Assembly: GCA_021323895.1 (NCBI GenBank)
Contig: JAJPKD010000174.1
Span: forward strand, 1-64,000
Length of the DNA stretch: 64,000 nucleotides
Origin: Acidobacteriota bacterium
GTDB lineage: Bacteria > Acidobacteriota > Blastocatellia > Pyrinomonadales > Pyrinomonadaceae
Direction: 5' to 3'
Shown piece after piece: positions 3,543 through 33,528 of the stretch (within the stretch, counting starts at the first letter, position 1; every line of letters starts with the position of its first letter). The notes under the pieces were generated by a model. That model was not told the origin of the DNA. It searched no databases and saw only the letters and a program-made list of their open reading frames with translations. Made by a program: the position numbers and the translations under genes.

Positions 3543-5888
<2,346 letters not shown>

Positions 5889-13030: not shown

Positions 13031-14950
13031 ATGAGCAAAATCATCGGTATTGACTTGGGAACGACCAACTCTGTCGTTGCAGTCATGGAGGGCGGTGAGC
13101 CCGTCGTTATCACAAATGCAGAGGGCGGCCGTACGACTCCATCAGTAGTCGCGTTCGCCAAGGACGGCAACCGGCTGGTCGGCCAAGTGGCCAAGCGGCA
13201 GGCGGTCACAAATCCTGAGAACACAATCTATTCAATCAAGCGCTTCATGGGGCGCCGCTTTAACGAAGTCTCCGAGGAGAAAAAGCAGGTCCCTTACAAA
13301 GTGGAAGGCAGCGGCAGCGGCGGTGACGTGCGCATCGGCGCCGGCGGCAAAGAATGGAGTCCGCCGGAAATCTCGGCCATGATCCTGCAAAAGATGAAGC
13401 AATCGGCCGAGGACTACCTCGGACAGAAAGTTGACAAGGCAGTCATCACGGTTCCGGCTTACTTCAACGACTCGCAGCGCCAGGCCACCAAGGACGCGGG
13501 AAAGATCGCGGGCCTCGAAGTTATGCGTATCGTGAACGAGCCGACGGCGGCGGCATTGGCGTACGGCCTCGACAAGAAGAAAGACGAGACGATCGCCGTG
13601 TTCGACTTTGGCGGCGGCACCTACGACATTTCGATTCTTGAAGTCGGCGAAGGCGTCGTCGAAGTGAAATCGACGAACGGTGACACGCACCTTGGTGGTG
13701 ACGACATCGACGAACGGCTGATCGAATGGATCATTGAAGAGTTCAAGAAAGATCAGGGCATCGATCTTTCCAAAGACAAAATGGCGCTCCAGCGCCTGAA
13801 GGAAGCAGCCGAGAAGGCGAAGATCGAGTTGTCTTCGACGATGGAGACGGAAATCAAGCTGCCATTCATCACGGCTGATCAATCAGGACCGAAGCACTTG
13901 GTGATGAAACTGACGCGGGCGCGTTTCGAGCAGTTGGTCGATCCGATCTTGAAGCGACTGACTCCGCCTCTGGAGCAGGCGTTGAAAGACGCGGCGATCG
14001 ACGCGAAGAAGATCGATGAGGTCGTGCTGGTCGGCGGTTCGACTCGCATCCCAAAGGTTCAGGAGATCGTTAAGAACTTCTTCGGGAAAGAGCCGAACAA
14101 GAGCGTGAACCCTGACGAAGTTGTCGCGATCGGCGCGGCTGTCCAAGCAGGCGTTCTGTCAGGTGAAAAGACCGACATCCTGCTTCTTGACGTAACACCG
14201 CTTAGCCTCGGCATCGAAACACTCGGTGGCGTTTCGACCAAGCTTATCGAGCGCAACACGACGATTCCGACGCGCAAGTCTGAAATCTTCTCGACGGCTT
14301 CCGATAATCAAACGTCGGTGGAAGTTCACGTCATTCAGGGCGAGCGCCCGATGGCCGCCGACAATCGCACGCTCGGCAAATTCCACCTCGTCGGAATTCC
14401 GCCGGCGCCGCGCGGCATGCCGCAAATCGAAGTCACGTTCGACATCGACGCCAACGGCATCGTGAACGTCTCGGCCAAAGACATGGGCACAGGCCGCGAG
14501 CAGAAGATCACCATCACGTCCTCTTCTGGCCTGAGCAAAGAAGAGATCGACAAGATGATGCGCGATGCCGAATCGCACTCGGCGGAAGACGCTACCAAGC
14601 GTGACGAAATCGAAGCGCGCAATCGCCTGGACGGTCTGATCTATCAGATGGAAAAGACTCTGAGTGAGAACCGCGAGAAGGTCTCGGCGGTGGCGGGTGA
14701 AGTCGAAACCGCGATCGCCGACGCGAAGAAAGCGATCGAAGAAGGCGGCGTTGAGCGCATGAACAATGCATTCAACGCGCTGCAGACGGTCTCGCACAAG
14801 ATGGCTGAGGCCTTGTATCAGCAAACTGGCTCTGCGCCTGGTGGGGAATCAACCGATCAAGCAGCAGGCGCAAGCGCTTCCTCTGGTTCAGGTGGCGGCG
14901 AAGATAACGTCATCGACGCTGAATACGTCGATGTGGACGAGAATAAGTAA
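13031..14950 (+). CDS. dnaK: Molecular chaperone DnaK
   Basis: [42 protein letters not shown]... through ...[14 protein letters not shown]. Confidence 0.98.
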
Positions 14951-14955
14951 GGATA

Positions 14956-15030
14956 GTGAACAGTGAGCGGTGAGCAGTAGGCAGTTTCTTTTCGCTGCTG
15001 CTCACTGCTTACTGCGATCTGCTCACTGAC
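14956..15030. repeat. Heptad-repeat inverted arms between dnaK and dnaJ (locus B)
   Basis: Left GTGAACA GTGAGCG GTGAGCA GTAGGCA G (14956-14984); right CTGCTGCTCACTGCTTACTGCGATCTGCTCACTGAC (14995-15030), followed directly by GTG at 15031. Confidence 0.85.
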
Positions 15031-16188
15031 GTGGCCAAAGAAGACTTCTACAAAATTCTCGGCGTAAAGAAGGACGCCAAGCCGGACGAAATCAAGAAAG
15101 CCTACCGGCGCTTGGCGCGCAAGTATCACCCGGACGTAAATCCCGGTGATAAAGCCGCCGAGGAGCGCTTCAAGGAAATGAGCGAAGCGTTTGATGTCCT
15201 GTCTGATCCAAAGAAGCGCAAAGTTTACGATCAGTTTGGCCAATACTCGGACAATCTTGCGAACGCGGCGGCCAGCGGCGCCGGATCGGCTTACACGCGC
15301 GGCGCTCCGTTCGACTTTTCGGGATTCGATTGGGGCGCAGCGACCGCTGGGGCGGGAACTTCGACCGGCACCGGTAGCTTCCGCGACATCTTCTCAGACC
15401 TATTTGGCGGGCGCGCCGAACGCGAACCACCGCGGCCTCAACCCCAGCGCGGCGCCGACATTGAGATGCCTCTGTCGCTCTCTTTCGAAGAAGCGATCAC
15501 CGGTCTCACTACTAACATCACCGTGAATCGATCCGAGCAATGCTCTCGCTGTCACGGCGCGGGCGACACCGGCGGATCGGTGGTGACCTGTACGACGTGC
15601 AAAGGCTCTGGCCAGGTGCAACGCGCCGGCGGCCGCCTGCGATTCAGCCAGGAATGTCCCGACTGGGGCGGAAGCGGCAAGCGTCGCCCGCCGTGTTCGT
15701 TGTGCAAGGGCAAAGGCGTGCTGCCGAAAACTGAGAACGTCAAAGTCCGTATCCCCGCCGGCGTAGATACCGGCTCGCGCGTGCGCATTCCCGGCAAAGG
15801 CGAAGGCGGACGGCTTGGTGCGCCGCCGGGCGATCTTTACATCATCACGAACGTCGGACGGCATCAACACTTCACGCGCAAGGGCGACAACATTTATGTG
15901 ACGGTGCCAATCACAGTGCCGGAAGCTGCGTTGGGGGCAAAGATTGAAGTACCCACGGTCACCGGCAAAGCGCAACTACGTATTCCGCCCGGCACGCAGT
16001 CAGGCCAGAAGTTTCGGCTTCGTCATCGAGGCGCGCCATCTCTACGCGATCCAAATGCGCACGGCGATCAGTTTGTCGAGGTGCAGGTGACCTTGCCGAA
16101 AGTGATTTCAGAAGAGACGAAAGAATTGCTGCGCAAGTACGCGCAGATGAATGGCGAGAATCCGCGAGTGGCGATGGGACTTGAATGA
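15031..16188 (+). CDS. dnaJ: Molecular chaperone DnaJ
   Basis: J-domain [40 protein letters not shown] region; zinc-finger repeats [24 protein letters not shown] (degenerate), CSLCKGKG. Confidence 0.95.
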
Positions 16189-16279
16189 GTTTTGAGTTCT
16201 CAGTTTCAAGTTTTCAGTTGGCTAATCTCCCTGCGCAAACGCCGACTCAAAACTGAAAACTCAAAACTGCAAACTGAGG
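16186..16279. repeat. Heptad-repeat inverted arms between dnaJ and hspR (locus C)
   Basis: Left TGAGTTT TGAGTTC TCAGTTT CAAGTTT TCAGTTG (16186-16220); right ACTCAAA ACTGAAA ACTCAAA ACTGCAA ACTGAGG (16245-16279). Confidence 0.88.
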
Positions 16280-16312
16280 AAAAGGCGAGCCAAAACATTT
16301 ACGATCAGCGCG

Positions 16313-27688: not shown

Positions 27689-28639
27689 TTATTCAGCGGC
27701 TTTTTGAGATTGATTGAGCAGAGTTTCGAGGACGAGCGTCTCGCGAAAGTTCTCCAACAACGGGAAGTAAGCTGCTGTGCGATCCAAAGCGGCCCGCGGC
27801 ACTAACCCGACGATTTCCGTGCCCATGATTTCGACGCCTTCGTGTTGGGCCTGCTGCTGCACGGCATCGAACGCGCGCGAGATTGCAGTTTGCTGGTAGT
27901 CAATTAAGTTCATCGAGACTTGCACGACGCCACGGCTTTTCAATTCGAACCCGCGCGCCTTCACAAACGGCAAGCCACCGTCGCGTTCACGCACCGCGCG
28001 CGCAATTCGTTGCGCCAGCGCTAGATCGTTCGCCCGTAGATTCACATTAAAGGCGATAAGAAATGGCCGCGCGCCAATCACAATTGCGCCGGCGGTCTCA
28101 TGCAATTGGCGTTCACCGACGTCCGGCGCGCGATCAGGTTCGCTGGTTATTCGATCGCGTAACCACTCGAATCCTTTGCCTCGGATGTGTTCTAGGCGGC
28201 GTCGATCAGTACGCAGGGCGGCGCGTTCATAAAAGAAGGCGGGGATACGCAACTCGTTCCAAACCCGGCGTCCGCATTCATGCGCCAGCGCCACGCAGTC
28301 ATCGATTGACACGCCGCTAACCGGGACGAAAGGCAGCACGTCAGTCGCGCCGATGCGCGGATGCACGCCCGCATGCGTGCGCAAGTCGATTAACTCCGCG
28401 GCCGTCGCCACCGCTTGCAGCGCCGCATCGACGATCACTTCCGGAGACGCGACGAACGTGATTACCGATCGATTGTGATCAGGATCGATGTGCTGGTTCA
28501 GCACGACTGCGCCGTGCACCGACTCGATTGATTTCGAAATCGCCTGGATCGTTTCGATCTTGCGGCCTTCGCTGAAGTTTGGTACACACTCGATTAGATT
28601 ACGGATTGCGGATTTCGAATTGCGGATTTGATCGCCCAT
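27689..28639 (-). CDS. Glutamate formimidoyltransferase
   Basis: LIECVPNFSEGRKIETIQAI...DPDHNRSVITFV...LIDLRTHAGVHPRIGATDVLPFVPVSG. Confidence 0.9.
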   Translation of the reverse strand: MGDQIRNSKSAIRNLIECVPNFSEGRKIETIQAISKSIESVHGAVVLNQHIDPDHNRSVITFVASPEVIVDAALQAVATAAELIDLRTHAGVHPRIGATDVLPFVPVSGVSIDDCVALAHECGRRVWNELRIPAFFYERAALRTDRRRLEHIRGKGFEWLRDRITSEPDRAPDVGERQLHETAGAIVIGARPFLIAFNVNLRANDLALAQRIARAVRERDGGLPFVKARGFELKSRGVVQVSMNLIDYQQTAISRAFDAVQQQAQHEGVEIMGTEIVGLVPRAALDRTAAYFPLLENFRETLVLETLLNQSQKAAE

Positions 28640-28696
28640 GGCCTTGCTCGCCATTCAGTGTAATTCGAAATTCAAAATTCGCAATTCAAGATTCAG
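28597..28696. repeat. Heptad-repeat inverted arms between divergent genes (locus E)
   Basis: Left GATTACG GATTGCG GATTTCG AATTGCG GATTTGA (28597-28631); right AATTCGA AATTCAA AATTCGC AATTCAA GATTCAG (28662-28696), then ATG at 28697. Confidence 0.88.
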
Positions 28697-29674
28697 ATGC
28701 CCATCGATCGTTTCATCAACGAACGCAAGACGGTCTGGCAAAGGCTCGAGGAGTTGCTCGCGCTGCTCGACCGCATGACGCTGAGAAAGCTGCATCGCGA
28801 AGAAGTGCGCGAGCTGGGCCGCATCTATCGGCGAACCGCTTCAGACCTGGCCATCGCGCGCGCCGAATCGCGCGATCCTCGTCTAGTCAATTATCTGAAC
28901 AGCCTGGTGATTCGCGCTCACGGCCGCATTTATCGCGCTGATTCGCAGGGTGGCCAGCGCGTCCGCGATTTCTTTAGCCGTGATTTTCCGCAAACCTTTC
29001 GGCGCACCTGGCGCTATACCGCGACTGCTTTCGCGGTGTTCTGGTTGTTCACCGGAATCGCTTTCTTCGGCACGCGCCATGATCCGGATTTTTCCGAGTT
29101 CGCCGGCATCAGCCCGTTTTTCCGCGAAGTCGTCATCAATCACCGCACGCACTGGTGGGAAGACTTAAATGAAGCGAACCAAATCGGCTCGAGCCAAATC
29201 TTCACCAACAACATTCGCGTCACGTTTTATGCGTTCGCTCTGGGAGCGATTTTCGGTCTCGGCACGCTGTATGTGATCGCCTTCAACGGTGCGATGTTCG
29301 GCGCGATTATCGCGTTAACTTATCGCGCTGGATTCGGAAACGACCTGTTATTTGGATTTGTCATCTCGCACGGCGTGATCGAGTTGAGTTGTATTTTTAT
29401 CGCCGGCGGCGCGGGACTTCTCATTGGCACGGCGCTGTTGATGCCTGGGGATCTTTCGCGCGCCGATGCGCTAAAGTCGCGCGGCCTGGATGCGGTGAAG
29501 TTAATTGTTGGCTGTGTCCCTCTGCTGGTCGTGGCGGGAATCATCGAAGGATTCATCTCGCCCCAGCCGATTTCGCCTTTGATCAAGATCGGAATAGGTT
29601 TGATTACGGGAATCGCGCTGTATTCCTATCTGCTATTGGCCGGAAGAGATGCTACAGAAGACCGCGCTCCTTAA
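28697..29674 (+). CDS. Stage II sporulation protein M-like (SpoIIM family) membrane protein
   Basis: Multi-TM protein, FFTNNIRVTFYAFALGAIFGLGTLYVIAFNGAMFGAIIAL...HGVIELSCIFIAGGAGLLIG. Confidence 0.88.
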   Translation: MPIDRFINERKTVWQRLEELLALLDRMTLRKLHREEVRELGRIYRRTASDLAIARAESRDPRLVNYLNSLVIRAHGRIYRADSQGGQRVRDFFSRDFPQTFRRTWRYTATAFAVFWLFTGIAFFGTRHDPDFSEFAGISPFFREVVINHRTHWWEDLNEANQIGSSQIFTNNIRVTFYAFALGAIFGLGTLYVIAFNGAMFGAIIALTYRAGFGNDLLFGFVISHGVIELSCIFIAGGAGLLIGTALLMPGDLSRADALKSRGLDAVKLIVGCVPLLVVAGIIEGFISPQPISPLIKIGIGLITGIALYSYLLLAGRDATEDRAP

Positions 29675-33415: not shown

Positions 33416-33528
33416 AGTCAGTCGAAACTCGCGAGTCGCGAGTCTTCCGCCACAAGTCGATTTGATTTGCTAGTTCGATTATTACTCATGACGCTCGACT
33501 CGTGACTCACGACTCTTGACTAGTCACT
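33416..33528. repeat. Heptad-repeat inverted arms (locus F)
   Basis: Left AGTCAGT CGAAACT CGCGAGT CGCGAGT (33416-33443); right CTCGACT CGTGACT CACGACT CTTGACT AGTCACT (33494-33528). Confidence 0.8.

Follow-up and report, generated by a model that had tools for sequence, protein, structure and literature searches.

In the window, by which we mean the whole stretch of 64,000 nucleotides of Acidobacteriota DNA (class Blastocatellia, family Pyrinomonadaceae) analysed here, almost the entire gap between the divergent genes ftcD and spoIIM is occupied by inverted runs of a 7-nt repeat. These runs probably represent an intergenic inverted heptad array that is copied locally and fills the gap up to the coding borders, with the leader of one gene and the N-terminal residues of the other arising as tolerated by-products. 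The features of the locus are the following:

27689-28639, minus strand: ftcD, encoding glutamate formimidoyltransferase, with an array-encoded N-terminal extension.
28597-28631, minus strand: left heptad arm; its minus-strand reading encodes QIRNSKSAIRN of FtcD (codons 28598-28630).
28632-28661, no strand: loop between the arms, with the candidate ftcD ATGs 28637-28639 and 28652-28654 (minus strand), and probably also the promoters.
28662-28696, plus strand: right heptad arm, oriented opposite to the left arm and abutting the spoIIM ATG.
28697-29674, plus strand: gene for a SpoIIM-family (stage II sporulation protein M) membrane protein.

The left arm is built of the units GATTACG, GATTGCG, GATTTCG, AATTGCG and GATTTGA (28597-28631), and the right arm of AATTCGA, AATTCAA, AATTCGC, AATTCAA and GATTCAG (28662-28696). 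TRF and a repeat finder detected period 7 (and 14) on each side of the gap, and inverted arms of 24 nt with 83% complementarity. The first-pass annotation had described positions 28597-28696 as the two arms of one heptad inverted repeat, which repeat finding and the match of the inverted arms bear out; it had also placed the SpoIIM-like ATG immediately after a right arm ending in GATTCAG, and the arm indeed ends at 28696 with the ATG at 28697. The period-7 score of the gap was unmatched by any of 300 dinucleotide shuffles. Periods of 5, 6, 8, 9, 10 and 14 were also tried across the window, and yielded no arrays comparable to the period-7 ones.

The identities of FtcD and SpoIIM were confirmed by protein family models. 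FtcD matched TIGR02024 with 343 bits (cut-off 221) and both formiminotransferase subdomains, PF07837 and PF02971, and SpoIIM matched PF01944. The solved relatives 1tt9 and 1qd1 align to FtcD from residue 14 on. Read from the ATG at 28637-28639, the protein begins with M-G-D from the loop, followed by QIRNSKSAIRN from the arm and then by LIECVPN; the second candidate ATG in the loop, at 28652-28654, reads MASKA-. No in-frame ATG, GTG or TTG was found between MGDQ and LIECVPN, so that FtcD starts in or before the loop and the left arm is therefore partly translated. The earlier assignment of the FtcD N-terminus before LIECVPN to the left arm thus holds for QIRNSKSAIRN, and needs correction for M-G-D, which comes from the loop. 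In the AlphaFold2 model, residues 1-11 have a pLDDT below 50 and are predicted to be disordered, and strand 1 begins at residue 15. Since the tail is predicted to be disordered and to end before this strand, it is probably tolerated rather than needed.

In all repeat-free orthologs, ftcD starts three codons before LVECV (position -3). This includes L038, L050, L059, L068 and L069, in which ftcD adjoins spoIIM. The start at -3 is also found in L036, L047, L054, L057 and L066, in which ftcD lies at least 1.6 kb from spoIIM. Six orthologs (L045, L046, L048, L056, L064 and L065) bear an array, yet keep the -3 start. The window genome has lost this ancestral start, as have further members of the same genus and a second clade; in these, the start now lies between -31 and +1. 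It is found at -14 in the window, -15 in L033, -16 in L058, -13 in L005 (as GTG) and in L042 and L043, -7 in L040, and -31 in L039. In L031 and L032 it lies at -1, and the ATG is formed by the array itself (AATCGGCAATG). As read from the sequence, the ATG of L062 lies at +1, a position at which L041 offers only a TTG.

An array is present in 12 out of 12 orthologs whose start is not at -3. An N-terminal extension without the repeat had been named beforehand as the case that would speak against a role of the array, and none was detected among the orthologs compared. On the SpoIIM tree, three or more changes are needed to explain the displacement of the start. At the window locus, the arrays lie where ftcD ancestrally started, and the ftcD start has shifted outward, with the left arm partly translated. 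The start of spoIIM is kept in the closest relatives of the window genome.

Other 7-mers occupy the same gap in related species, and the two arms of a locus are usually alike. AATC-type arrays (mostly AATCSGC) are present in the genus of the window and in other groups, CAAAGTA in L005 and L056, TGCCTAC in L045 and L046, CTAACCT in L064, and CTGACAT in L048. Five heptad classes require at least four changes, and with all AATC types merged, at least six class changes are needed among the 18 array-bearing orthologs. The inverted-arm score averaged 15.2 within a locus versus 6.35 across classes; the arms match only weakly in L046, L048 and L056. Between the window and its nearest relative L031, identity is 82% over the first 300 bases of spoIIM, 76% on the ftcD side and 61% in the gap. 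Tree support within the genus of the window is moderate (87-90), and for this reason more confidence can be placed in the switches to unrelated heptads than in the one between AATCCGC and AATCGGC in that genus.

The array is absent in L050, L059 and L069, where the starts of ftcD and spoIIM lie about 20-65 nt apart. In the repeat-free gaps of L059 and L069, the two start codons are separated by only about 20-25 nt, and the gap of L059 contains the palindromic GGATTATAATCC between the starts, which resembles a -10 element common to two leaderless transcripts. Upstream of spoIIM, L034 and L067 have longer repeated words in hairpins (TTCGTGTAGTTTCGTGTGGATTCGTGG and CCACAGAGAACACAGAGGGCACAGAG) instead of heptads.

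Period-7 arrays were also surveyed in 1.36 Mb of sequence sampled from four genomes and in 200 kb of G034, using gene starts from a simple codon-usage caller. Nine out of 13 arrays were intergenic in the sample of the window's own genome, 11 out of 12 in G002, 15 out of 17 in G006, and 14 out of 15 in G025. No period-7 arrays were found in the 200 kb of G034, which belongs to another family. Period 7 alone was enriched in intergenic DNA, and the other periods tried gave very few intergenic arrays. Nearly every locus has its own heptad, frequently with an inverted partner, such as GTCAGTT/AACTGAC, GAGTCAT/ATGACTC and GTGAGCA/TGCTCAC. Further arrays in the window are located at 14950-15030 (GTGAGCA), 16188-16312 (GTTTTGA/CTCAAAA), 4684-4787 (GGAGTCA with ACAACTG) and 33484-33528 (ACTCACG), the first two of which have inverted arms between a stop and the next gene.

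An exact triple of AATCSGC was detected in 47 out of 135 genomes of the class, and in 14 out of 247 genomes sampled across the phylum. In the class, controls with the reversed pattern gave zero matches in all genomes but one. In the search across the phylum, the reversed triple of CGSCTAA has 7 forward and 13 reverse matches in genome G237; it is hardly present in other genomes, hinting at another heptad family.

In 16 out of 27 inverted pairs, no more than 16 nt separate either outer end from the ORF next to it; random placement predicts 8.9 such pairs (P = 0.0004). Under a stricter null, in which the total outer gap is fixed, the flush placement was not significant (P = 0.12-0.14). The flush placement of inverted pairs against both ORFs is thus supported under random placement but not settled, because the two null models disagree. 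In L140 (11289 onward) and L158 (2560 onward), arrays appear to extend beyond the stop into the 3' end of the adjacent coding sequence. From these two arrays, C-termini too may be array-encoded.

The position of the arms next to coding sequence on both sides of the ftcD/spoIIM gap is what would be expected if the arrays were functional 5' leaders, each arm lying in the untranslated leader of its gene and serving as binding site of a translational regulator (S1, Csp or Csr-like), a role proposed for the TAACTGA repeats of Beggiatoaceae. The right arm would be the 5' leader of spoIIM if transcription begins in the loop, and candidate -10-like motifs were read by eye in the loop of several orthologs. 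In Beggiatoaceae, heptads end about 1 nt before starts and Shine-Dalgarno sites are rare (MacGregor 2015, PMC4679880). However, arrays elsewhere in these genomes adjoin both stop and start codons, and their frequency in gaps of at least 60 nt is similar between convergent genes (6.8%) and between genes in the orientations >> (4.0%), << (5.0%) and <> (4.4%). In addition, the heptad is not conserved at the orthologous gap, which makes a sequence-specific binder unlikely, and a consensus promoter and terminator scan of the window gap found nothing. We therefore regard the leader function as unlikely.

The same evidence bears on the supply of starts. The suggestion of the first-pass annotation that the repeat supplies N-terminal residues stands insofar as the arm is translated, and does not stand as a property special to starts, as arrays adjoin stops too. 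Because arrays reach stops as well, in all gene orientations, the supply of a start is a consequence of the arrays and not evidence of a start-codon function. Filling of gaps regardless of the neighbouring genes fits the wider data better than a repeat that supplies starts.

Arms that are alike within a locus, while the heptads vary by locus and species, are also consistent with RNA hairpins between genes, acting as terminator, stabiliser or coupling element, in which the sequence is free as long as the arms pair. Such functions were proposed for a comparable Nostoc hairpin that lies upstream of hoxW (PMC2670836), and the arms of the window gap are paired in the predicted fold. Nonetheless, the fold of -31.5 kcal/mol has a z of only -1.5, and 22 out of 200 shuffles fold equally well or better, so an exceptional RNA hairpin was rejected for this gap. 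Transcripts initiated in the loop of a divergent locus would receive one arm each, which would make the hairpin impossible there, and the arrays are not concentrated between convergent or tandem genes. Rfam gave no match at the gathering threshold in the whole window. We consider an RNA hairpin function improbable.

A third explanation is that the arrays are REPIN-like miniature mobile elements which a Y1 (RAYT) transposase has dispersed. The layout of REPINs, an inverted doublet in intergenic DNA (PMC3116915), is found here. Moreover, Y1_Tnp genes number 4-15 in the seven sampled genomes known to bear arrays (5-15 in G002, G004, G006, G014, G025 and G032), versus 0-3 in five genomes without the AATCSGC pattern (G028, G031, G034, G035 and G038). 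However, no heptad array was found within about 1 kb of any of 20 Y1_Tnp genes examined. Among random stretches of equal size, about 5-10% hold an array, and the result therefore indicates no depletion, yet no linkage either. As the repeats do not flank the Y1 transposase gene, membership in the REPIN/RAYT system was rejected. Furthermore, the loops are not homologous between loci, and the many unrelated heptads do not form one REP family. A mobile element with a common interior was likewise rejected, since the gaps of the window and of L032, used as queries, matched essentially only the arms; two of the matches listed for the window gap span the loop, and both are weak (73-76%). Taken together, a REPIN-like origin is very unlikely.

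Under the preferred reading of locally copied, gap-filling arrays, the repeat would spread by slippage in 7-nt steps, and template switching or conversion between the arms would keep both alike. Purifying selection on codons and promoter would halt the growth of the array. Where a start codon is overwritten, a new start would be adopted in the loop or at the end of the array. The by-products may be tolerated more easily when the heptad has no stops in the frame used; in the count of stop codons near ftcD meant for this idea, flanking bases add stops. A stronger version, to which we give little credence, is that an active process writes inverted, locus-specific 7-mer pairs into intergenic gaps as far as the edges of the coding sequences and later exchanges the 7-mer of both arms together for a new one, so that starts are repeatedly overwritten and re-chosen.

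Across more than twenty relatives, the ftcD/spoIIM gap is either free of repeats or carries one of five heptad classes. Questions raised in cyanobacteria, such as the origin of heptad stems, why the unit is seven and how the class of both arms changes jointly, are thereby testable at one short divergent gap. The locus also presents a route from non-coding repeats to N-terminal protein sequence. For annotation, such arrays are a source of wrong starts and of repeat-derived termini such as QIRNPQSAIRN.

In the open-licence literature, we found no paper on heptad repeats in Acidobacteria. Stems built of heptads, swaps of heptad class and heptads next to starts have precedents in Nostoc, Beggiatoaceae and Xanthomonas. 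The P6b stem of the tRNA-Leu(UAA) intron of Nostoc is built of heptads of class I (TDNGATT) or class II (NNTGAGT) (PMC4476775). Similar to this stem, the ftcD/spoIIM gap has a degenerate 7-nt stem with inverted matching arms, and at this one site relatives carry heptads of entirely different class. However, P6b is part of a group I intron and comes in two classes, whereas the arrays described here lie between protein genes, comprise at least five classes at one gap and alter the N-terminus of a protein. The site is not the trnL P6b stem itself, given its location between ftcD and spoIIM and the lack of an Rfam match in the window.

The cyanobacterial short tandemly repeated repetitive (STRR) sequences are 7-bp repeats that form hairpins between genes and are highly variable among relatives (PMC2670836, citing Jackman and Mulligan 1995). 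The arrays resemble them in these properties, although they occur in another phylum, and the passages on STRR in PMC2670836 describe no replacement at an orthologous gap and no displacement of start codons. Intergenic heptad arrays are also formed by GGGAATC in Xanthomonas, often as inverted pairs, and by GGGGA(C/T)T in Nostoc (PMC4692102). The arrays share the intergenic position and the inverted pairs with the Xanthomonas repeat. GGGAATC is one G-rich, quadruplex-prone heptad located nearer the end of the upstream gene, in contrast to the many heptads found here, which have no G-tract basis.

TAACTGA direct repeats are known from Beggiatoaceae, Cyanobacteria and Bacteroidetes, and end a few nt before start codons or lie sometimes inside ORFs (PMC4679880). 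Similarly, the right arm of the window gap lies directly upstream of the spoIIM start. TAACTGA is, however, one fixed heptad in direct repeats that is hardly ever inverted, while the arrays described here vary by locus and species, are inverted, and abut stops too. What sets them apart from the known systems is their phylum, how many heptads occur at a single orthologous gap, and that the start of a protein was displaced repeatedly.
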